NCBI RefSeq assembly: GCF_900130045.1
Contig: NZ_FQXT01000001.1
Span: 663,014-727,013, forward strand
Source: Leeuwenhoekiella palythoae
GTDB taxonomy: Bacteria > Bacteroidota > Bacteroidia > Flavobacteriales > Flavobacteriaceae
Direction of reading: 5' to 3'
Length of the DNA: 64,000 bases
The position numbers were made by a program, and so were the translations under genes. Positions 1 to 41,445 of the stretch are shown piece after piece (position 1 is the first letter of the stretch; each line of letters starts with the position of its first letter). The notes under the pieces were generated by a model. That model was not told where the DNA came from, made no database searches, and saw nothing but the letters and a program-made list of their open reading frames with translations.

Positions 1-513
1 ATGACCGAGATGGAGATGGCAGAAATGGGCCAGTATGCGCACGGAAATCAGCCTATTCAGCATATGATTTATTTATACAATTACTCGGGTCAACCCTGGA
101 AATCCCAGCAAAAATCCCGTGAAGTAATGCGCAAACTATATAATTATACAGAAAACGGCTATCCCGGTGATGAAGATCAAGGTCAAACCTCTTCTTGGTA
201 TGTTTTAAGTGCGATGGGATTTTATAGTGTGTGCCCGGGAACTAACGAATATGTTTTAGGAAGTCCGGTTTTTGAGAAAACAACCATTTCTCTTGAAAAT
301 GGAAAAACATTCACCATTAAAGCCGCTGATAATTCACAACAGAATGTTTACATCAATTCAGCTCAACTTAATGAAAGCGCTTTCTCAAAAAACTACTTAA
401 CTTATCAACAACTTTTAGACGGAGGTACTTTTAACCTTCAAATGAGTGCTACACCAAATAAGAAACGTGGCATACAGAATACAGATAAACCTTTTTCACT
501 CACAGAATATTAA
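1..513 (+). CDS. GH92 alpha-mannosidase, C-terminal fragment
   Basis: This is the 3' end of a GH92 exo-alpha-mannosidase cut by the window edge. The ATG at base 1 is an internal Met, since the reading frame opens in the middle of the catalytic domain. Visible motifs are HGNQP, followed by an IYLYNYSG stretch and then GDEDQGQTSSWY, the C-terminal active-site region of the family that carries the paired acidic residues. The fragment is clearly related to the C-terminus of the GH92 at 5445-7736, so the two look like an old duplication. GH92 enzymes are calcium-dependent inverting mannosidases that trim alpha-1,2/1,3/1,4/1,6-linked mannose. Linkage specificity cannot be read from this fragment. 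A Gfo/Idh gene follows 11 bp downstream. Confidence 0.93.
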   Translation: MTEMEMAEMGQYAHGNQPIQHMIYLYNYSGQPWKSQQKSREVMRKLYNYTENGYPGDEDQGQTSSWYVLSAMGFYSVCPGTNEYVLGSPVFEKTTISLENGKTFTIKAADNSQQNVYINSAQLNESAFSKNYLTYQQLLDGGTFNLQMSATPNKKRGIQNTDKPFSLTEY

Positions 514-12942: not shown

Positions 12943-15126
12943 TTACTCTACGTTTAATTTTAAATCGCCTCCAAGCATCAATTGTTCCTGATCAATAAAA
13001 TAGCCATCAAGCGTTTTTCCGTTGTATTGAATTTGCTTTAGCGTTCTTGATGTTCCTTCTTTGGAGGTTTCTAATGAATTTCTACCTAAATTCCATTTTA
13101 CGCGGTCAAAAACGGGAAGACTTACTAGATACTCATTATCTGCCGGTGACAGCGGATACAGTCCAGAAGCTGCAAAAACATACCAAGCGCTCATCTCCCC
13201 CGCATCATCCATCCCGCTAAATGCCAAACCGGTTGGTCCTACCCCATAATAGTCTTCTAGAAGCGTGTCTACAATGTGCTGGGATTTTTCGGGCTTATTG
13301 ATAAAATAATAGGCAAAGGGTGCCTCGTGATCGGGCTGATTTCCGTGGCAGTATTGACCTAAAAATCCGCTTACATTGCGCGCGATATGTTTAGGATTCC
13401 AAGGTAAGGTGAATAAGGAATCTAGCTTTTGCTCAAAAGCTTTTTCACTTGGATATAAAGCTACCAAACCATTCATATCGTGCGGCACGAAGAACGCAAG
13501 TTGCCAAGCATTGGCCTCGCGATACATATACTCATAATATGGATATTCTGCATCAAACGGACTTATAAAAGATCCATCAGCTAGCTTACCGCGCATAAAA
13601 TGTGTTTTTGGGTCAAAGACATTCTTGTAATTCTTTGCACGTGCAGCGAGATCTTTGGCGTGATTGTCATCATTTAAAGCTGCTGCCAACAAAGACAAAC
13701 TGTAATCATCGTAAGCATACTCAAGCGTTTTTGAAACACCGGCCTTTGCTTTAGTTTCTACATGCGGATTTTCAACATCAGGGTCTGAAATAAAACCTTT
13801 TTCTATGTATTCTGCGATGTGTGGTCGTGTGCCGCCTTCTTTATACGCATTGTTTAGAAGCTGCTCGTAGGCTTTTTTCACATCAAAATTCGTAATGCCT
13901 TTACCATAAGCCTGTGCGACAAAAGGTGCAGCGTGATCGCCGTGAAAAAAGGTAGGCATAAATCCGCTTTGAGTTCCTTTGTCGATTAACGATTGAATGA
14001 TATCACCGGTAACTTCCGGCGATAATAAGCTCAATAAAACCAATTTGTTGCGATACGTATCCCAAAGCGACGGATTGGTATAATACCGGAAGCCTTTATT
14101 TTGAACCGTTCCCTGAGCATCTGTAAACTCCCCATTGTGATCACTGCGCAAAGCCGGCCACTGCAAGCTTCGGTATAACGAGGAATAAAAAAGCTCTTTC
14201 TCTTTTTGGCTTCCGCCGGAAACTTGGATCTTAGACAACACAGCCTCCCAAGTCTTTTCCGCAGCTTGGTGTATTTCCTCAAAAGTTTTAGTCCCTATTT
14301 CTTGCTGAAGATTTTCTCGTGCATTTTCGGTACTTACAAAAGACAAACCTATTTTTAAAGTTACCGGGTTTGGCGAAGCTTTTAAATTCAGAATCGCATA
14401 ACCTTTATCTGTATTTGGGTTTACTTGCTGGAGTTCGCTGATCGCCTCGCTGAGTTCTACCGAAAAATATACTTTATCACCTCCCGTACGCTGAAATCCT
14501 TCAAGTGTCTTACGCCCGGTTTGTCGCAGTTGCCACTCGTCAACGTGATGATTTGCGCGTCCCAGATCAAATAGAATTGTATGTGCCGAATTATCATCGA
14601 AAGTATAGTTGTGAAAACCCGCACGCAAGGTTGATGTAACCTCAACCTTAACCTTGTAATCATTCAAATAAACACTGTAATAGCCGGCGGAAGCATTTTC
14701 AGTCTCTTTATCAAAAGAAGATTTAAAAGGTACCGAAGCATTTTCTGCAATTGGCAAAATCGGAATATGACACAAATTCCAGTGCCCTTTATTGGTATGT
14801 GTAAAGCCTAGAATTTCATCGTCTTCATATTCATAGCCGGCGCCGCTTCCGTATTGGGTAATGGGACTCAGTTGTACCATCGCATTAGGCAGCGTCGCGC
14901 CGGGATAGGTTAATCCTGCCCATACCCGCCATCCTTCAGGCGGTGTGTACCCTATAAAATCAGGATCTGTGAGCGGTGCGGTACCGTGAAATGGATTGAC
15001 ATAAGCCACCGGGTTTTCTACGTAGGCTTCTTTTTGTTGCGCTGTTACAAGATTGCTGAGGCTTAACAGCGTAACTGCAAAACTAAATAGTATCTTCCTA
15101 CGGAAAGCGCTAGCGTTGTGTTTCAT
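12943..15126 (-). CDS. GH92 alpha-mannosidase
   Basis: This GH92 protein has about 727 residues and a signal peptide (ILFSFAVTLLSLSNLVTAQ). I start at the ATG at 15126; the codon before it is TTG. Motifs are YVNPFHGTAPL at the N-terminus, EANAWQLAFFVPHD with the general acid at E537, YCHGNQPDHEAPFAYYF and GMDDAGEMSAWYVFAASGLYPL. The HGNQP form and the Glu in DDAGEMSAW (Gln in the other complete GH92s with that motif) separate it from the GH92 genes at 5-10 kb. It lies 12 bp after GH125 and 11 bp before the esterase. Alpha-mannosidase activity is expected; linkage is unknown. Confidence 0.93.
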   Translation of the reverse strand: MKHNASAFRRKILFSFAVTLLSLSNLVTAQQKEAYVENPVAYVNPFHGTAPLTDPDFIGYTPPEGWRVWAGLTYPGATLPNAMVQLSPITQYGSGAGYEYEDDEILGFTHTNKGHWNLCHIPILPIAENASVPFKSSFDKETENASAGYYSVYLNDYKVKVEVTSTLRAGFHNYTFDDNSAHTILFDLGRANHHVDEWQLRQTGRKTLEGFQRTGGDKVYFSVELSEAISELQQVNPNTDKGYAILNLKASPNPVTLKIGLSFVSTENARENLQQEIGTKTFEEIHQAAEKTWEAVLSKIQVSGGSQKEKELFYSSLYRSLQWPALRSDHNGEFTDAQGTVQNKGFRYYTNPSLWDTYRNKLVLLSLLSPEVTGDIIQSLIDKGTQSGFMPTFFHGDHAAPFVAQAYGKGITNFDVKKAYEQLLNNAYKEGGTRPHIAEYIEKGFISDPDVENPHVETKAKAGVSKTLEYAYDDYSLSLLAAALNDDNHAKDLAARAKNYKNVFDPKTHFMRGKLADGSFISPFDAEYPYYEYMYREANAWQLAFFVPHDMNGLVALYPSEKAFEQKLDSLFTLPWNPKHIARNVSGFLGQYCHGNQPDHEAPFAYYFINKPEKSQHIVDTLLEDYYGVGPTGLAFSGMDDAGEMSAWYVFAASGLYPLSPADNEYLVSLPVFDRVKWNLGRNSLETSKEGTSRTLKQIQYNGKTLDGYFIDQEQLMLGGDLKLNVE

Positions 15127-15138
15127 CAACTTTTTATT

Positions 15139-28563: not shown

Positions 28564-29751
28564 CTAAATCGAATGCTTTGGGTTCCATTTAACGACTTCA
28601 TTGGTAAGCATCGAGTCAATAGCCATTTGCACACAGATTGCGGTATTGGCACCGGTTTTTAAGTCTGAAATGGGTTTGCTATTATTCTTGATCGCATCTC
28701 TCAAATCCATTAGAGCCTGCTTGCTAGGATCTGCGTGGCTAAACTCAAACGGAATTCCCTTTCCGGCTTCCCAAGGTGTTGTAGCACCCGCAACACCATC
28801 AACCTCAGCGCGCTTTTTAGTATAATTTCCTTCAGGATAAAACCAGCCGTTGACATAATCTAAAATAATGGTTCCCTTGTCGCCCATTACCTTGATCTGG
28901 TAATCGTCTTTAGCATTAGTCGTTAAACAAGTAAAGGTCGCCTCTACTCCACTGGGATACGAAAATAAATGATGTACATTATCAAAGGTTTCTCTGCCGT
29001 CTTTCCAGTAATCAATACCGCCTGTACCAAAAACCTGCGACGGTGTTTCTCCCAAAACCCAATTGGTAAAATCGATCTGGTGCGAACATAATTCTGCAGT
29101 CAATCCGCCGGAATATTCCCGGTACATACGCCAATTGATCATACGCTCCAGTTCGGGTTCAGGAACGGGTCTGCGCCAGTTTCCGCTGCGATTCCATTGG
29201 CATTCAAAAGCAGTGATCTCGCCTATTTTTCCATCTTTAATCAAATCAACCACGTGCGTATACAAGCGCGAACTGTGGTACTGATGGCCGGTTTGAAAGA
29301 CTAAATTCCCTTGTGCGGCATCAACAACATCCAACACGGCATCATAGCCTTTTGCCATTGTCTTTTCGCCATACACGTGTTTTCCGGCGGCAAGCGCATC
29401 AAGCTCTATCTGCGCATGCGTGCTGAACGGAGTCGCTACCAAAACCGCATCAATACTCTTATCTTCTAGCAATTTTCGATAATCGGTATAGGCTTTTGCT
29501 GAATCTCCCGCGCGTTTCATTCCGTTAGCCAATCGAAACGGAATAACATCACAACAGGCAGCTACTTCAATCCCTTCAATACCATTCATCACTGAAATTA
29601 AACCGCCTCCGCGATCGCCGGTTCCTATCACACCTATGCGTATTGGTGCACTTGAACCCACATATTTATTGATGTAAGCAAACCCCGGACTAGCAGAAGA
29701 TACCGCCGCTGCTGCCAGACTGCTTTTGATCACAAAATCTCTACGTTTCAT
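28564..29751 (-). CDS. Gfo/Idh/MocA family oxidoreductase, Tat-type signal
   Basis: This 395-residue oxidoreductase has a twin-arginine-type signal (MKRRDFVIKSSLAAAAVSS). The Rossmann motif is RIGVIGTGDRGGGLISV and the family EKP motif reads GKHVYGEKTMAKGYD, keeping the Lys. A His-containing C-terminal domain segment (AELCSHQIDFTNWVLGE) supports the usual catalytic architecture. It is the last gene of the DUF1080-Gfo-Gfo unit, 6 bp after the preceding gene. Reduction or oxidation of a keto-sugar intermediate is inferred. It is not closely similar to its neighbour, so the two likely act on different intermediates. Confidence 0.85.
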   Translation of the reverse strand: MKRRDFVIKSSLAAAAVSSASPGFAYINKYVGSSAPIRIGVIGTGDRGGGLISVMNGIEGIEVAACCDVIPFRLANGMKRAGDSAKAYTDYRKLLEDKSIDAVLVATPFSTHAQIELDALAAGKHVYGEKTMAKGYDAVLDVVDAAQGNLVFQTGHQYHSSRLYTHVVDLIKDGKIGEITAFECQWNRSGNWRRPVPEPELERMINWRMYREYSGGLTAELCSHQIDFTNWVLGETPSQVFGTGGIDYWKDGRETFDNVHHLFSYPSGVEATFTCLTTNAKDDYQIKVMGDKGTIILDYVNGWFYPEGNYTKKRAEVDGVAGATTPWEAGKGIPFEFSHADPSKQALMDLRDAIKNNSKPISDLKTGANTAICVQMAIDSMLTNEVVKWNPKHSI

Positions 29752-29757
29752 AGTCTC

Positions 29758-31095
29758 TTAAATTTTAGGTTCCCAATTAGGTGCATACTCGCGTCCCCAA
29801 AGTTGCATCGCTTCCCGATCATAAATGCGACCTGATTTAGCATCGATATCAAAACCGTGCCCTACGCGATACGCCATATTTGCATAATGCACCATCGCCA
29901 TACTTACCGAAGCATCTTCAATAGGCGCTTTTAAAGTTTCTTTACCGCGAATCGCTTCAAAAAAGTTTACCATATGCGCTGTGGAAGAGTCGCCCCCACC
30001 GCCAAGTGCGAGTCCGCTTTCTGAGGTTTCTTCACTTTGTTTGATCACTTTTCCGCTGCGATCCATAAGCACATAATTAGAACGATCTACCAAAACCGAA
30101 CCTTCGGCACCAAAAATTAGGGTACCACGACCGCGGCCATACGTGTTGTACCCGTTGCGGCTTTTTCCGTCCCAATTGATCACTTTATCATCATCAAATT
30201 TGAACGTCGCATACATCGTATCATACATTTCCCAACCGTCATTTTTAAAATGGCGTTTTTCGGCTTGCACTTCGGCGTAATTAGGGAATTCAACACCCAA
30301 AGCCCATCGGGCAATATCGAGTTCGTGCGTCGCATTATTTCCGGTTTCGGCGGTGCCGTAATTCCAGCCGTACCAATGCCAGTTGTAATCCCAAGTTTCA
30401 CTCGTGTACGCTCTACGCGGAGCCGGCCCTTGCCAAAGCTCCCAATCTAATCCGGTGGGTACAGCCGCCTGCTGCTGCACCGGTGTTTCTCCACGCGTAT
30501 TAGAATAAAAGGCTACAGCTTTATAAACATCACCAATTACCCCTTTGTGAATCTGATCTATGATCTCTATAGTGTGCAACGACGAGCGCTGTTGATTACC
30601 CATTTGCACGCGTTTGTCAAACTTTTTTGCCGCCACAACCAAGAGTTCGTTTTCATTCATATTGTGGCTACACGGTTTTTCAACATACACGTGTTTGCCC
30701 GCTTTTAATGCCATAACAGACCCCGGAGTGTGCCAGTGATCTGGAGTTGCATTTACAAGAATATCTACATCCTTATCTTCAATAAGTTTGCGAATATCAT
30801 TTTCTAATACCGGTGTGTAATCAATATGTTCTTTAAAATTCTTAAGCGCATTCAGTCGGCTTTTTTCCATCACATCACAGAGATACAGTAGGCGTACGTT
30901 AGATTCTTTGCGGGCGATGGGTGCATAATAGGCTCCCAAACGTCTTCCTAATCCCGCGACCGCAACATTTAGGCGATCATTAGCTCCTATAATATTGCGA
31001 TAACTACTGGCAGCCATTCCCATTGCGGTATTGCTTAGCGCCAGCGCGGTTCCGCCTAAAATTGATTTATTGATAAACGATCTACGTGTGGTCAT
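29758..31095 (-). CDS. Gfo/Idh/MocA family oxidoreductase, Tat-type signal
   Basis: This 445-residue protein has a Tat-like signal (TTRRSFINKSILGGTALALS). Rossmann motif VAVAGLGRRLGAY, the EKP motif in KHVYVEKPCSHNMNENE and the substrate-domain segment ETGNNATHELDIARWALGVEFP with the catalytic His region are all intact. It starts 1 bp before the stop region of the DUF1080 gene and ends 6 bp before the next Gfo/Idh, so the three are co-transcribed. Secreted members of this type accompany DUF1080 proteins in Bacteroidota. The substrate is not known. Confidence 0.86.
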   Translation of the reverse strand: MTTRRSFINKSILGGTALALSNTAMGMAASSYRNIIGANDRLNVAVAGLGRRLGAYYAPIARKESNVRLLYLCDVMEKSRLNALKNFKEHIDYTPVLENDIRKLIEDKDVDILVNATPDHWHTPGSVMALKAGKHVYVEKPCSHNMNENELLVVAAKKFDKRVQMGNQQRSSLHTIEIIDQIHKGVIGDVYKAVAFYSNTRGETPVQQQAAVPTGLDWELWQGPAPRRAYTSETWDYNWHWYGWNYGTAETGNNATHELDIARWALGVEFPNYAEVQAEKRHFKNDGWEMYDTMYATFKFDDDKVINWDGKSRNGYNTYGRGRGTLIFGAEGSVLVDRSNYVLMDRSGKVIKQSEETSESGLALGGGGDSSTAHMVNFFEAIRGKETLKAPIEDASVSMAMVHYANMAYRVGHGFDIDAKSGRIYDREAMQLWGREYAPNWEPKI

Positions 31096-31096
31096 A

Positions 31097-32467
31097 TTAA
31101 AGTTCTTTGATTTTGATATTCTTGAAGGATACGCGATTTCCGTGGTCTTGTAGTAAAATATTGCCGCGCTCTAAGGTCCCAAATCCCGGCCAGTCTTTGT
31201 ATTTACTTTCTTGAACTAATTGAAGAAAAGCATCTGTACTGCGATCGTACTCCAACACTTTTTCATCATTAAGCCAGTGCGAAACTTTACCATCTTTACT
31301 CACAATGCGTGCAGTATTCCAAGAGCCGATAGGGTTTACCGGTTTATTAGGATTAGCCTGAATCAAATCATACAACGAAGCTAAAGTGCGACTACCTTCG
31401 TGATTTCCTAATTTGGCATCAGGATGCCGTTCATCATCCAAAATCTGATATTCTAAACCTATCGAAGAACCTTCACCTTTATTCAGGTCTGTATCTACAT
31501 AATATTTGATTCCGCTGTTAGCACCTTCGGTAATTTTAAAATCCACTTTCAGTTCAAAATCTTCGTACTTCTGTGTGGTAACAATATCTCCACCGGCTTC
31601 AGACTCTCCGCCTCCACTTTCCATAACCGTGAGCATGTCGTCTTCGATCTGCCACCCTTGCTCCGGAAAAGTTTCAAGTTTTGCTCCTTTCCAACCTTTT
31701 GTGGTTTTTCCATCCCATAGCAGTTGCCAACCAGATGCTGCTTCTGCTTGTGTCAGATTATTTTTAGTATTGAAAGCAGGCAAGCGCATCTGCTTACTGT
31801 ATTCTCGCGGATTCTCTGAAATGATCTTTAGATTTTTCCATCGTATTTCCTTCCCCGGTTCATCTTCAGCGCCTATCGCGTGAACTTGCAATGCAATAAA
31901 TCCTGAAGCGGTCTGGTCATCTACAAGATGGGCCGCTTCAACCCCATTGATCCAAGTTTTGAGCGTATCACCCAATGCTTCCACACGGTAATGATTCCAT
32001 TCATTTTGTTTAAAAGCCTGCTGCGCTTTAGGGTTATTTTCTAACGAATACAACCAGCCTTTGCGCGCCTCGTCATAAATACCGGCGCTCCAAGCCCGGT
32101 CAGATGGGTCTATCTCTACCTGATATCCGTGAACTCTCCCCTTTTTATAATCAGGATCGCTTAGGCTGCGTATTTGCACACCTGAATTCATTGAGGGATC
32201 TACCTTATAATCAAACTCTAAAATGAAATCACCATAATCTTCGGTAGTCGTTAAAAACGAATTCGGTGTATTGGCTACGGTGGTACCAACGATTTCCTCA
32301 CCTTCTATACGATATGCTGCTTTGCCGTTAAGTTGTTCCCAACCATTAAGCGAAGTACCATCAAACAGGTCTTGCCAAGGTTCTTGATCTGATTCTTTTT
32401 TACAGCCCGTGATCAGTAAGCTTGCAAGCACAAACAATGCTGCGCCTTTGTAGAGATGTCTATTCAT
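31097..32467 (-). CDS. Lipoprotein with two DUF1080 (3-keto-disaccharide hydrolase-like) domains
   Basis: This 456-residue lipoprotein has the signal [12 protein letters not shown]. Two tandem jelly-roll DUF1080 domains are visible: one beginning [18 protein letters not shown] near residue 31 and one beginning [15 protein letters not shown] near residue 248. Each contains the family's NSGIKYY/NSGVQIR segment and an EYQILDD or [10 protein letters not shown] block. DUF1080 proteins of Bacteroidota hydrolyse or eliminate 3-keto-glycosides. It heads a unit with two Gfo/Idh oxidoreductases, which could make or reduce 3-keto sugars. Both domains appear complete. Confidence 0.86.
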
Positions 32468-32533: not shown

Positions 32534-32571
32534 CAAAAAAATAGCGAGACTTCAATAAAAAGCCTCGCTAT
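32534..32571 (-). terminator. Rho-independent terminator after GH92
   Basis: The stem ATAGCGAG / CTCGCTAT is followed by a T-run on the minus strand. It is 10 bp downstream of the GH92 stop and ends the permease-GH92 unit. Confidence 0.88.
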
Positions 32572-32580
32572 ACATACACA

Positions 32581-34629
32581 CTAGTTTAATTCAACTTTTG
32601 TAATAAAAGTATTTTGCGTTCCCCAATCTTTATTGGGCGTATCTGCTGTTTCAATGATCAAGTCACCACCGGAAGTCAGTTCTTCGTGCGTGAGCCAGTT
32701 TCGATTTAAAGGTTTACCGTTAAAGGTTGCCGATTTCACGTAAAAATGATCCTTGTTATAATTCTTGACCGAAATTTTAAAGGTCTTCCCTGTGGCAAGA
32801 TTAAGATTCACTTCTTTAAAAATTGGTGCCGTTAAATAGTAAACCGGACTACCTACATTAGCTACCGAAAGTCCCATACTGTGCAGCACAAACCACGATG
32901 ACATCGTACCAGCATCATCATCCATCGTACGCAAATAAGCTTTGGGTTTGTTCTGATAAATGCGGCCCACATAAGGATCTATCCCTTTGCTGTTGTCGTT
33001 AAAATAGGTTTGCACCACAGTGTCTAAAAGAATTTCTCTAAAAAGCTTTTGTGATTTCCAAGGTTGACGGGTCGCATTGTACAATCCCGGAACTTGCAAA
33101 TCAGGCTGATTGGCGTGATTGTAATTAAACTCTTCAAAAAACTGATCCAGTTGACCTTCAAAGGCCTCTGCCCCACCTGTTAAATCTTGCAAGCCGTTTA
33201 CATCCCAAGGCACAAACCAGCGGTATTGCCAGATGGTCCCTTGATACAAACCGCGTGCTTGCATTCGATCTACATCATTTTTTGACAGATCTTTAAAATC
33301 TTTATCCCAATAGGCTTTATAATCTAAAGCTTTATCTAGATACGTTTTACCCGCTCTGGAATCTCCTGTCGCTTTGAGAATTTCGCTCATCGCCCATAGA
33401 TCGTAAGACGATTCTAAAGCTTTGTCCGGAGCACCAAAATCTAAATGATCTGCTTCATAAAGCAAAGAATCCTTGATAGCTTCAAAATCGACCTCATAAC
33501 CTTTTTTATACGCATCGAGTAGCACAACCATCGCGTGTTCTGTACGTACCGTAGGCGAGGTCTCGTGTTCTGTTGCCCAATTCTTTTTCCCAAAGCGGTA
33601 TAAATTGGCAATACTCGTTGTGATATTTTGATAGGTTTTAGGCTTAATTAAAGATAAAAGCGGCAACTGCTCGCGGTAATTATCCCAAATCGCCCAACCG
33701 TTATAGACTTTATACTCCTCATTTTGCACAGAACCATCTGTGGCTCTAAACGTCCCATCTTCTTCAGAAACCAAAAACGGAGATTGTGCAGTTCTATACA
33801 TTAAGGAATAGAATAATTCCATGCGATCGGTTTCCCCAAAAACTTCAATAGTGTTCAAATAGGCATTCCAACTTGCGGAAGCGCTTTCTTTTAATGTTTC
33901 AAAATCATCTGAAGTAATGCGTTTTTTGGCATATCCCTCATTTACTGAAGAAAAACCTACCTGGACTTCAGCCGTATTCCCCAAACCTTTTACCATCAAT
34001 TGATGCTCCCCTACGTTCTGAATTTGCGCTTCTTCCGGTAATTTAATCGCATAGTAAACGCGGTAGGTTCCGGCGTGACAAGTGGTTTTGGTATCAATAA
34101 ATCCCGAGATCAGATTTCGGCGTATCTCGTGTGTTTCAGCAACAAAACGATTACTCAAGGCAAAAGAAAGATCTATATACAAACCGCTATTCGCATTCGG
34201 AAACGTGTACTGATGCATCCCTAAGTTTTGCGCTACGGTGAGTTTAGCGTCGATTCCGTTTTCAAAATTCACGTGGTAAAAACCGGGAACTGCATCCTGC
34301 GTTTTTTTTATGAGTTGGGTCTCTACTTCAGCATTTAGAATAGGTTTAATAAGTAGATTTCCTCCGCTTCCCGTGCAGCCCACGCCTTCCATTCGGGTAT
34401 GGGTAAAACCGTCAAACTGCTTTGCGTAATATTCATAGCCCGTATGCTGATGCGGATTGGTTTGCGGGCCTAAATTCATCATATTGAATGGTGTAGTCGC
34501 CGATGGAGACATCTGCCCGTGATCGCCGCTCGTACCTAAAAACACATTGACGTAATCTGTTAATTGCTGTTGCGCAGCACTTGTAAAAGCCAACAATAAC
34601 GTAAGAAATAGCGGAATATATTTTTTCAT
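32581..34629 (-). CDS. GH92-family protein with Gln at the general-acid position
   Basis: This GH92-fold protein has about 682 residues, the shortest complete GH92 here, with signal MKKYIPLFLTLLLAFTSAAQ. I start at ATG 34629, the codon before being TTG. N-terminal YVNVFLGTSGDHGQMSPSA, the FTHTRMEGVGCTGSGGN stretch and the C-terminal acidic motif MDDDAGTMSSWFVL are present. In the segment that reads E(G/A)N(S/A)W in the other three complete GH92s, this protein reads GLYQGTIWQYRW, placing Gln463 where the catalytic Glu (E533 in BT3990) should be. The same Glu-to-Gln change is known in GH92 enzymes that split mannose-1-phospho-6-mannose. HGNxP is NHANQP here. It is co-transcribed with a FucP-type permease. 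Confidence 0.9.
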   Translation of the reverse strand: MKKYIPLFLTLLLAFTSAAQQQLTDYVNVFLGTSGDHGQMSPSATTPFNMMNLGPQTNPHQHTGYEYYAKQFDGFTHTRMEGVGCTGSGGNLLIKPILNAEVETQLIKKTQDAVPGFYHVNFENGIDAKLTVAQNLGMHQYTFPNANSGLYIDLSFALSNRFVAETHEIRRNLISGFIDTKTTCHAGTYRVYYAIKLPEEAQIQNVGEHQLMVKGLGNTAEVQVGFSSVNEGYAKKRITSDDFETLKESASASWNAYLNTIEVFGETDRMELFYSLMYRTAQSPFLVSEEDGTFRATDGSVQNEEYKVYNGWAIWDNYREQLPLLSLIKPKTYQNITTSIANLYRFGKKNWATEHETSPTVRTEHAMVVLLDAYKKGYEVDFEAIKDSLLYEADHLDFGAPDKALESSYDLWAMSEILKATGDSRAGKTYLDKALDYKAYWDKDFKDLSKNDVDRMQARGLYQGTIWQYRWFVPWDVNGLQDLTGGAEAFEGQLDQFFEEFNYNHANQPDLQVPGLYNATRQPWKSQKLFREILLDTVVQTYFNDNSKGIDPYVGRIYQNKPKAYLRTMDDDAGTMSSWFVLHSMGLSVANVGSPVYYLTAPIFKEVNLNLATGKTFKISVKNYNKDHFYVKSATFNGKPLNRNWLTHEELTSGGDLIIETADTPNKDWGTQNTFITKVELN

Positions 34630-34674
34630 CAAAAAAGCTTCAATAATAGATCTTAAAGTTAGGTTTTCGAAGGA

Positions 34675-35994
34675 TTAAAGCGTTTCGGCAATGTTATGTT
34701 TTCTATGAATCCATATTCCATAGATCGCGATAATCGTAAAACATGAAACAGGAAGCAGGAACGAAAGATTCATTTCAGAAAGCCCTAAAACGGTAATATC
34801 GTTTACTCCTACGCCACCAAAGTCTATGATCATTCCTTGAAGTTTTGGTAATAAAGCACCACCTACAATAGCCATCACGAGTCCGGCTGCGCCTATTTTA
34901 GCTTGATCCTCCTTTAAGCCTTCTAAAGCAATCCCGTAAATTGTGGGGAACATTACCGAAAGGAAAAGCGATACTAAAACCAAGCTATACAAGCCGGCGT
35001 GGCCTTCAAGAATTACCGCGCCTAAGGCGAATAAACCTCCTAGCCCCGAAAAGCAAAACAACAACTTTCCTGAGCTCATAAACTTCAGCATATACGTACC
35101 TATCGCACGACCTACAGTAAATAAAATAAAGGCTACCAACTGATAATTTGCTGCGGTAGAACTGGATATCCCTTTAGCCTCAGCATATTGATAAATATAG
35201 GTCCAGCAGCCTATTTGCGCACCCATATACAGCACCAAGGAAAATACACCTAGAGCATATTTCTTATTTTTAAAAAGTTCGCTGAAGGTATCTTTTATAC
35301 TTGGGATGCTGCCGTCTCCTTTTGCCTGCGGCATTTTATTTACGGCAATAAGCACTAGAATAGCCAAAACCACAAGCCCCAAGATCACATAAGGATTGCG
35401 GATCACCATAAGATCAGCAGATTTTATAAGTAGCTTTTGCGCTTCGGGCAATGCCGAAAAATTCTCTACATCATCAGATTGTAAGAGATCCAAGACAAAA
35501 AACTTCGCAACCAGCAAACCTACGATGAGGCCGACAGGGTTGAAGGCTTGCGCCAAATTTAAACGCTGCGTTGCCGATTTCTGATCTCCCATTGCCATAA
35601 TGTATGGGTTTGCCGTGGTCTCTAGAAATGCCAGACCAAAAGTCAGGATGTATAAGCCCAAGCAAAAAAACCAGAAAAGCCCGGTTGTTGCAGCAGGGTA
35701 AAACAATAAGGCGCCGCCGGCGTAGAGCGTGAGACCAACCAGAACTCCAGATTTATACGAAAACTTACGTACAAATAAAGCGGCCGGAAGCGCCATGCAA
35801 AAATATCCTCCATAAAAAGCCATCTGTACCCAGGCGGCTTGCGAGTTAGACAACTCTAATACTTTTTTAAAGGCCTGTACCATGGGGTCTGTTACCGCGT
35901 TGGCAAATCCCCAGAGGGCAAATAAAGAGGTAACTAAAATAAAAGGAAGTAATAATTTTTTAGGTACAACCGGAGCTGCTTGTGTTTTATTCAT
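34675..35994 (-). CDS. FucP-like MFS sugar permease
   Basis: This 439-residue inner-membrane transporter has 12 predicted membrane segments. The N-terminal part (FILVTSLFALWGFANAVTDPMV) and GLAFLETTANPYIMAMG are typical of the FucP/GluP branch of the major facilitator superfamily, which carries fucose, glucose, galactose or mannose with protons. It precedes the Gln-variant GH92 by 45 bp and has a TAAAACGTTTTA site upstream. Mannose uptake is the best guess from the regulon; the substrate is not determined by sequence. Confidence 0.9.
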   Translation of the reverse strand: MNKTQAAPVVPKKLLLPFILVTSLFALWGFANAVTDPMVQAFKKVLELSNSQAAWVQMAFYGGYFCMALPAALFVRKFSYKSGVLVGLTLYAGGALLFYPAATTGLFWFFCLGLYILTFGLAFLETTANPYIMAMGDQKSATQRLNLAQAFNPVGLIVGLLVAKFFVLDLLQSDDVENFSALPEAQKLLIKSADLMVIRNPYVILGLVVLAILVLIAVNKMPQAKGDGSIPSIKDTFSELFKNKKYALGVFSLVLYMGAQIGCWTYIYQYAEAKGISSSTAANYQLVAFILFTVGRAIGTYMLKFMSSGKLLFCFSGLGGLFALGAVILEGHAGLYSLVLVSLFLSVMFPTIYGIALEGLKEDQAKIGAAGLVMAIVGGALLPKLQGMIIDFGGVGVNDITVLGLSEMNLSFLLPVSCFTIIAIYGIWIHRKHNIAETL

Positions 35995-39732: not shown

Positions 39733-41445
39733 TTAATTCGGAAAAACATCTGTTGCCTTGGCCATGGTATTCCATTCTTCTTGCATCGCTTTTAAACGAT
39801 CGGGATATTTTGCTGCCAGATTATTCATTTCGGTACGGTCTTCTTTCAGATTATACAGTTCCCAATCTGCATTACCGTCAAGCTTAACCAGTTTCCAATC
39901 GCCTTGACGTAGAGCTGCTGCACCAAAATGCTCCCAAAATAACGTTTCATTAATCGGTGCTTCTTCTGTATTTGTAAAAGCCGAAACCATACTTTTTCCC
40001 ATATATGGGTCGATGGTATTTCCGTTGAACTCCTCCGGATAAGTCGCTCCTGAAAGCTCCAGTAAGGTAGGCATAATGTCTATGATGTGTGCTGCTTGCG
40101 ATTTTACAGCACCTTGTTCTTTAATTCCTGCCGGCCAGTGTACAATGAAGGGCGAAGTGATTCCGCCTTCGTAAACGCGGGCCTTCCAATATCTAAACGG
40201 CGTGTTGGCCACATTTGCCCAAACGGCACCAATACCAGACATCACCGTTTCAGGTCCCGGAAGATGTTCTTCGCTCTTCTTTACAGGATAATGAATTTCG
40301 CGACCATCACGTGTTTCTGAAGGGCGGTCAAAGCCAATTCCGTATTGAGAAGGACGCTCTGAACTTGCTCCGTTGTCTGACATAAACATAATTACGGTAT
40401 TATCAAGTTGGCCGGTTGCTTCCAACTTGTCAATGAGTTTCCCGATGTTTTGATCCATACGATCAATCATTGCTGCGTGAACCGCCATCGCTCGAGAATC
40501 CCAGTTTTCATTTTCATTTTCTGCCCACTTCAAGTCGGGAAACATGAACTCAGAAAGTTTGGTCGTGTCTCCTTTGAAAATCCCTTTCTCGATGAGTTTT
40601 TTATAGCGCTCCTCTCTGATTTTTTGCCAGCCTTCGTCATACACGTGCTCGTATTTCTTGATTTCTTGCTCAGGTGCCATTAACGGCCAGTGCGGTGCAC
40701 AATGAGCTACATAAAGGAAAAAAGGCTTTTCTTCTTTTACAAAATGATCTACATAAGCTACAGTAGAATCGCCGATGGCATCAGTGTAGTAGAAATCTTC
40801 TGGAACATCTTTTACAGGCTTTGTACCATTTACCAACGCAAACGGATCAAAATAATCTACTACTCCCCAAATGTTTCCGTAGTATTTATCAAAACCACGC
40901 GCTGTAGGATAGGTATCTAAATCTGAAAACGTTTCTTTTTCTGTCTGATGATTTAACCACTCGAGCTGCTCATTTCCGCCGAGATCTTCAGTAGGTGAAA
41001 CGTGCCATTTCCCAACCATTCCGGTTTGATAACCGGCAGTTTTTAAAACTTCGGCCAAGGTTACGGTTTGTTCATCAAGACGACCGCGATATCCCGGAAG
41101 GTTACGATCCATCGTCATCTGACCAATTCCCGCCTGATGCGGATATTGCCCGGTAAGTAATGCTGCGCGAGAAGGACAACATCTTGATGTATTATAAAAC
41201 GCGTTGAAGCGTAAGCCGTTTTCTGCAAGACCGTTTAAAACCGGCGTGTCTACTTCACCACCATAACAGCCCAGATCTGAAAAACCAAGATCGTCTGCCA
41301 TAATCACAACGATATTCGGTTTTTCGGGTGTCTCTGAAACTGAAGCTTTATCAGAGGTGTCGTTGTTTTTGCAATTGATAAAAAGTAAGGAACAACCTGC
41401 AATTAGGCTGATTTTTTTACGGAAAGGATTTAATTTATGTAACAT
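39733..41445 (-). CDS. Sulfatase (S1 family), lipoprotein
   Basis: This 570-residue formylglycine-dependent sulfatase has a lipoprotein signal ending LLFINC. The metal-binding start NIVVIMADDLGFSDLGCYGG is intact. The maturation signature is C89-C90-P91-S92-R93 followed by AALLTG, with C89 the residue converted to formylglycine. Further conserved segments are GKWHVSPTED, FLYVAHCAPHWPL and FMSDNGASSE. It heads the sulfatase-esterase-GH78 unit. A TAAAACGTTTTA site is only 11 bp upstream of the start codon, placing desulfation in the same regulon as the mannosidases. Substrate subfamily is not assigned. Confidence 0.94.
   Translation of the reverse strand: MLHKLNPFRKKISLIAGCSLLFINCKNNDTSDKASVSETPEKPNIVVIMADDLGFSDLGCYGGEVDTPVLNGLAENGLRFNAFYNTSRCCPSRAALLTGQYPHQAGIGQMTMDRNLPGYRGRLDEQTVTLAEVLKTAGYQTGMVGKWHVSPTEDLGGNEQLEWLNHQTEKETFSDLDTYPTARGFDKYYGNIWGVVDYFDPFALVNGTKPVKDVPEDFYYTDAIGDSTVAYVDHFVKEEKPFFLYVAHCAPHWPLMAPEQEIKKYEHVYDEGWQKIREERYKKLIEKGIFKGDTTKLSEFMFPDLKWAENENENWDSRAMAVHAAMIDRMDQNIGKLIDKLEATGQLDNTVIMFMSDNGASSERPSQYGIGFDRPSETRDGREIHYPVKKSEEHLPGPETVMSGIGAVWANVANTPFRYWKARVYEGGITSPFIVHWPAGIKEQGAVKSQAAHIIDIMPTLLELSGATYPEEFNGNTIDPYMGKSMVSAFTNTEEAPINETLFWEHFGAAALRQGDWKLVKLDGNADWELYNLKEDRTEMNNLAAKYPDRLKAMQEEWNTMAKATDVFPN

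Follow-up and report, generated by a model that had tools for sequence, protein, structure and literature searches.

The window, a 64,000-nucleotide stretch of Leeuwenhoekiella palythoae DNA, carries a GH92 gene whose product has Gln at the position of the catalytic general acid, together with a sugar permease gene and a terminator-like hairpin (Table 1). A gap of 45 bp separates the end of the permease gene from the GH92 ATG, which lies downstream on the same strand. An alternative TTG start at 34632, one codon before the ATG, would extend the ORF to 32581-34632 (minus strand, 683 aa); residues are numbered here from the ATG. The order of the two genes is kept in all five of the other Leeuwenhoekiella loci that we fetched (L040-L044), and a hairpin with a T run stands at the matching place in L040-L043, with a different stem sequence in L041-L043. 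The hairpin scan as a whole found no excess of such sites (9 against 10.7 in shuffles). From the short gap, the conserved gene order, and the hairpin after the gene, we infer that the permease and GH92 genes are co-transcribed, as the original prediction had proposed. An esterase and a sulfatase are encoded upstream of this unit. On its other side, positions 28564-32467 hold a 3-keto-disaccharide hydrolase gene followed by genes for two Gfo/Idh/MocA oxidoreductases, which resemble the glycoside 3-dehydrogenase BT_2158 family at scores below the cut-off. Judged from sequence, this segment may perhaps encode a 3-keto glycoside pathway.

Table 1. Features of the window discussed in the text, with positions counted from its first nucleotide.
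Feature	Position	Strand	Remarks
GH92 protein, Gln at general-acid site	32581..34629	-	682 aa from ATG
Gln463 codon (general-acid position; Glu in ordinary GH92)	33241..33243	-	computed from ATG 34629; agrees with pattern match
Arg362-Thr363-Glu364 codons, subfamily pair	33538..33546	-	from alignment; position computed
Asp570-Asp571-Asp572 codons	32914..32922	-	from alignment
Terminator-like 13-pair hairpin and T run after the GH92 gene	32541..32571	-	
FucP-like sugar symporter (MFS)	34675..35994	-	TIGR00885 479 bits, cut-off 280
Two-domain 3-keto-disaccharide hydrolase	31097..32467	-	first gene past the hairpin
Sulfatase, nearest AlkP-superfamily protein	39733-41445		CCPSR, ordinary-looking
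Further ordinary GH92, cut by the left edge of the window	1-513		

Membership of GH92 was apparent from both Pfam domains (Glyco_hydro_92, 3.4e-86; Glyco_hydro_92N, 2.5e-34) and from the two-domain fold, which Foldseek and VIA-align recovered from a predicted model (mean pLDDT 90, pTM 0.91). The acid site reads RGLYQGTIWQYRWF, and the ORF reading and the Pfam match agree with the earlier assignment of Gln463 to this position. The C-terminal Asp residues were likewise found as predicted, in MDDDAG. Asp572 is the putative general base, in view of its alignment with the Asp that is invariant in the GNED motif of ordinary GH92; PMC5930347 and PMC10167667 both name the general base of the family. 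By eye, the N-terminus resembles a signal peptide. Three complete GH92 genes elsewhere in the window encode Glu at the acid position, and the residues first listed as E541, E566, and E537 correspond to the sites TEGNSW (E544 counted from TTG, E541 from the Met at position 4), IEGNSW (E566), and REANAW (E538, or E537 from the second codon). The Glu-type GH92 at 12943-15129 has an odd GMDDAG base region and a HGNQPDHEAP motif, and sits on a long branch of the tree described below.

To follow the Gln through related proteins, we scanned one genome per species; 345 stretches matched, 281 of them encode a relative, and the best 80 of the 281 were kept. These 80 are from Bacteroidota, are 52-92% identical to the window protein, and come from Leeuwenhoekiella, Zunongwangia, Flavobacterium, Maribacter, Allomuricauda, Mucilaginibacter, Pedobacter, Chitinophaga, Hymenobacter, and other genera. 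The Glu that is usual in GH92 is absent from the window protein and from all 80 relatives, and Gln takes its place in all 81 rows, although retrieval was partly biased because the Gln is part of one of the two peptide patterns by which relatives were fetched. That pattern does not match the rows with GMYQGTVW, GLYQGTILQ, or RKLYQGT, which must have come through the other one. Since the Gln is present in every row and both of its codons are in use (CAG in 45 rows, CAA in 36), we ruled out a recent decay or a sequencing slip. The putative base Asp572 is also kept in all 81 aligned rows, and 126 of the 682 alignment columns are invariant.

Across 395 genomes of the class, a profile search detected the subfamily in five, including that of the window, at 1041 bits or more, and the next match scored 424 bits; the 25 further loci fetched from this search all have Glu at the site. 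The gene is patchily distributed within the genus: in a search of 60 relatives, 5 of 12 other Leeuwenhoekiella genomes had a match of at least 74%, and a different genus gave a single match, of 64%. Further Gln-type members came from plasmid records of Streptomyces, two Novosphingobium, and Persicobacter. On a plasmid of Catenovulum adriaticum (L125:9890-12013), a gene product keeps the remaining subfamily signature but has Glu at the acid site. Close to this Glu-form gene are genes for inositol oxygenase and GH28.

The closest characterized relative is CcMan5, a GH92 enzyme of Cellulosimicrobium cellulans (PDB 2xsg/4aq0). It was the best PDB match of the window protein by phmmer, and a profile scored it at 622 bits, with the next entry at 407. 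Structural comparison gave the same answer: CcMan5 was the top Foldseek match of the predicted model (E 3.9e-53) and the top VIA-align match (Z 46.3, rmsd 1.9, 653 aligned residues, 29% identity), above BT2199 (Z 43.1). The kinship with a phosphomannose-cleaving GH92 that had been proposed from the Gln thus holds by sequence, profile, fold, and tree. The two proteins are 26-35% identical, depending on the aligner, and CcMan5 has extra loops. The acid site of CcMan5 reads GLYQGTLWQYHW, with Gln as in the window protein; because this member of the family also lacks the Glu, its absence does not exclude the window protein from GH92. CcMan5 is reported to be active on Man-alpha-1,6-PO4-Man (PMC5930347; PMC9246025) and is the only GH92 that PMC5930347 names as cutting next to phosphate.

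A tree of 50 rows was built by a quick method (SH-aLRT without bootstrap, rooted at the midpoint, with CcMan5 represented by two fragments). The 30 subfamily rows, including CcMan5 and the window protein, fall on one side of a branch with an SH-aLRT of 100. CcMan5 pairs with a Streptomyces member, and the Glu/Gln site requires two changes, most simply read as a single Glu-to-Gln change at the base of the subfamily with one reversion to Glu in Catenovulum. The placement of Persicobacter JZB09 is unsure because of its long branch.

A signature made up of GVGx(2)GxGG, W312, R362-x-E364, D510, and MDxDA is present in the 30 subfamily rows, and none of the 25 next-best GH92 proteins found class-wide has the full set. 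Single items do occur outside the subfamily, with the longer loop in L037 and D510 plus GTMS in L006. The Gly-rich loop is one residue longer than usual (GVGCTGSGGN in the window protein, GVGGSGGGGD in CcMan5), W312 sits in GWAIWDNYR, the Arg-x-Glu pair reads TVRTEH (TVRWER in CcMan5), and the subfamily rows aligned for it have an insertion of about 27 residues ahead of MDxDA. The typical counterparts in ordinary GH92 are TG-xSDYGD, FSLWDTFR, CMIGYH, HGNEPSHH, and GNEDCGQMS. CcMan5 resembles the window protein in the Gln within GLYQGTxWQYxW, the Arg-x-Glu pair, the Gly-rich loop, W312, the insertion before TMDxDAG, and its place in the same clade. It differs in having HANxxDLQ, where the window subfamily has NANEIDLQ, and a Gln aligned with E406, which is kept in the Gln rows. 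The ordinary enzymes BT3130, BT3965, 7zgm, BT3990, and BT2199 have the same two-domain fold as the window model, but BT3130, BT3965, and 7zgm, like the other ordinary GH92 rows in our alignments, have Glu at the acid site and neither the Arg-x-Glu pair nor the insertion. For comparison with the +1 triad of the BT3990 type (Trp88, His584-Glu585), the window protein has H505-A506 in what is presumably the matching motif. Seven residues (W315, D316, D476, N507, D572, G574, and S577) are identical in the Gln rows, CcMan5, and eight Glu-type rows.

Arg362 and Glu364 align two and four residues past the Cys of CMIGYH in ordinary GH92, which makes the pair a candidate phosphate contact or substitute acid. 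If a substitute acid, most likely Glu364, had replaced the lost one, the protein would be an alpha-mannosidase of the ordinary kind with an unusual geometry. All subfamily rows, that of CcMan5 among them, have Glu at position 364, the ordinary GH92 that we compared do not, and the position is four residues past the Cys of CMIGYH, presumably the Cys described at the -1/+1 boundary of BT3990, BT3130, and BT3965 (PMC5930347). We nevertheless regard such a swap as unlikely: CcMan5 has the same pair and yet is reported to act on a phosphodiester, and Catenovulum has both Glu364 and Glu at the usual site, which would be needless if one stood in for the other. We also considered that hydrolytic activity has been lost and that the protein now only binds sugar, given that BT3990 becomes substantially less active on alpha-1,2-mannobiose when its acid is replaced by Ala or Gln (PMC10167667). 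The same source reports that the activity of these mutants is not abolished, and the reported activity of CcMan5 despite its Gln, the putative base kept in every row, and the many invariant columns make a loss of activity very improbable.

The window protein is probably a phosphomannoside-cleaving GH92 of the CcMan5-like subfamily. A phosphate leaving group should need no general acid. The protein would be exported, would depend on calcium, and would work as an inverting exo-glycosidase, releasing a terminal mannose, or a sugar configured like mannose, that is alpha-linked through phosphate (Man-alpha-1-P-R + water -> mannose + R-phosphate). Asp572, with Asp570, would activate the water. Gln463 would hold the leaving-group oxygen and donate no proton, since the departing phosphate monoester is an anion. 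To go by the alignment, the phosphate may be bound by Arg362 and possibly also by the Gly-rich loop near residues 82-91. Porphyromonas phosphomannan was dropped as a natural substrate on the statement in PMC13086638 that excludes phosphomannan from A-LPS.

We then compared the gene neighborhoods of the 80 Gln-type relatives with those of 40 control loci with Glu-type GH92, taken from 33 of 39 host genomes and mostly the first strong matches among the matches listed. The Glu pattern fits 38 of the controls, L165 and L174 being the exceptions. An operon run was defined as up to three genes on either side, on the same strand, with gaps of up to 500 bp; at least one such gene was present at 73 of the 80 Gln loci and 37 of the 40 control loci. 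Phosphoesterases were sought by motif in all 377 neighbor proteins and by Pfam in a selection of them, 25 from Gln loci and 15 from control loci, and families were assigned from the Pfam matches of representatives and, for the remainder, through similarity clusters. Sulfatases were kept outside the counts on both sides (a cluster of six in the Gln set and, by reading of the N-terminus, a cluster of two in the control).

A recognized phosphoesterase was found in the run of 19 of the 80 Gln-type loci and of none of the 40 ordinary loci (Fisher p 3e-4, a value that overstates independence because the counted loci are related); the runs of the other 61 had none that we recognized. The types were purple acid phosphatase (7), GDPD (5), Exo_endo_phos (4), PI-PLC-C1 (2), and alkaline phosphatase (1). 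The two Hymenobacter loci counted for PI-PLC-C1 (L082, L085) also carry a GDPD gene on the opposite strand, and PIG-L neighbors occur at Gln-type loci as well. By genus label, 10 of 22 were positive, one of the labels being an order (a MAG). On a plasmid of Streptomyces sp. NBC_01558 (L127:5890-12774), a single protein of 2295 aa joins a Gln-type GH92 to CBM6/CBM35 and PAP2 domains (PF01569, 3.8e-9). Unrelated phosphatase types beside these genes, together with the PAP2 fusion, are in our interpretation the best evidence for a phosphate-bearing substrate.

The neighborhood of the window gene itself is less telling. No recognized phosphoesterase was found in its operon or in the scanned flanks, and the Leeuwenhoekiella loci as a group do not have the phosphoesterase context of other relatives. 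The sulfatase upstream was rejected as a phosphoesterase, since it reads CCPSR and matches arylsulfatases, though a side activity is possible. Sulfatases of the same cluster are in the runs of six Gln loci, Zunongwangia included. In Zunongwangia L046 and L048, the sulfatase of this cluster is directly upstream of the Gln-type GH92. With sulfatases at these loci, sulfate is as near a neighbor as phosphate in the Leeuwenhoekiella/Zunongwangia branch. The permease, which had been expected to import the product, was dropped as evidence for the substrate, because its similarity cluster is also found beside ordinary GH92 (six proteins in Gln-set runs and five in control-set runs). The proposal that the enzyme removes phosphomannose caps thus gains from the kinship with CcMan5 and from the phosphate signal at some related loci, and finds no phosphoesterase to back it at the window locus. 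It is still the best-supported reading, and we hold it with fair confidence.

The commonest gene order at Gln-type loci is Ecf/FecR, SusC, SusD, DUF218, and GH92. Proteins of one DUF218 cluster are encoded at 36 of the 80 Gln loci; they are in the same-strand run at 31, against 0 of 40 controls (p 3.5e-7, overstated because the loci are related), and a distant DUF218 protein would be missed by this count because it was made by similarity cluster. These SusCD and DUF218 partners at many Bacteroidota loci, like the permease in Leeuwenhoekiella, set these members of the subfamily apart from CcMan5. In Novosphingobium humi, genes for a TonB receptor, a DUF218 protein with the motif HARHTTTNLRN, a Gln-type GH92, and a GH3 protein are consecutive. 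The DUF218 proteins at L126:8571-9917 (an alphaproteobacterium) and L060:8705-9988 (Bacteroidota), each a neighbor of a Gln-type GH92, have HARHTTTNLRN in common. A PDB sequence search with the DUF218 partner gave no relative, only five weak matches to coronin. In SanA, a DUF218 protein of E. coli, a Thr/His/Glu triad is reported to be required for function (PMC12176290).

These contexts bear on what the phosphate might be attached to. Another GH92 gene lies within 10 kb at only 5 of 64 full Gln loci (L047, L050, L053, L058, L071), as against 14 of 40 Glu-type loci (p 0.0012), so yeast-type phosphomannan is no obvious common substrate. Moreover, 4 of the 39 host genomes have no GH92 reaching E 1e-60; two of these, F. 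frigoris and F. petrolei, gave one first-look candidate each, presumably the Gln-type gene itself. With strong GH92 matches missing from these genomes and few GH92 genes nearby, the substrate need not be yeast phosphomannan. It is quite possible, if somewhat short of an even chance, that the substrate has a different activated or anionic aglycone (for example a glycerol-, inositol-, or lipid-linked phosphate, or the phosphate of a sugar other than mannose) and that the enzyme serves in the scavenging of organic phosphorus, and not in mannan breakdown. Such a role overlaps with phosphomannoside cleavage and differs from it in substrate and purpose. It would suit the SusCD-DUF218 context, mostly free of other GH92 genes within 10 kb, the GDPD, PI-PLC-C1, Exo_endo_phos, and PIG-L neighbors, the genomes without a strong GH92 match, and the description of Flavobacterium SusCD loci with phosphatases as phosphate utilization systems (PMC8115612). 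Pulling the other way are the reported activity of CcMan5 on Man-P-Man, the retention of several residues common to all compared GH92, and the few loci that do have another GH92 within 10 kb.

Many Gln-type loci resemble the phosphate utilization (PusCD) loci in being SusCD operons, some with a phosphatase or phosphodiesterase. The window locus differs: it is not a SusCD operon, and the operon and scanned flanks hold no SusCD pair with a phosphatase or phosphodiesterase. A term search of the main text of PMC8115612 returned no mention of GH92, glycoside hydrolase, mannosidase, or DUF218. More speculatively, DUF218 and Gln-type GH92, often with a phosphoesterase, may form an unrecognized system for obtaining both phosphorus and sugar from glycans or lipids linked through sugar-1-phosphate, in which DUF218 would be a second enzyme that works on the phosphorylated substrate or product. 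It would extend across Bacteroidota and at least one alphaproteobacterium; we consider this doubtful at present.

Phosphomannoside-cleaving GH92 is a known kind of enzyme, with CcMan5 as its example. What is new is how widely the subfamily extends in Bacteroidota, along with its recurring DUF218 and phosphoesterase neighbors, the PAP2 fusion, and the natural Glu form. We found no description of a Gln-type GH92 in Bacteroidota, its neighbors, the PAP2 fusion, or the Glu form in the open-licence literature that we searched. CcMan5 has served in the preparation of a lysosomal enzyme with a high content of mannose-6-phosphate (PMC9246025), and a candidate family with one conserved signature may yield new uncapping enzymes. 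The Gln subfamily and its natural Glu form in Catenovulum would offer a test of how a glycosidase works without an acid, and the pairing with Gln-type GH92 gives a handle on the function of DUF218.
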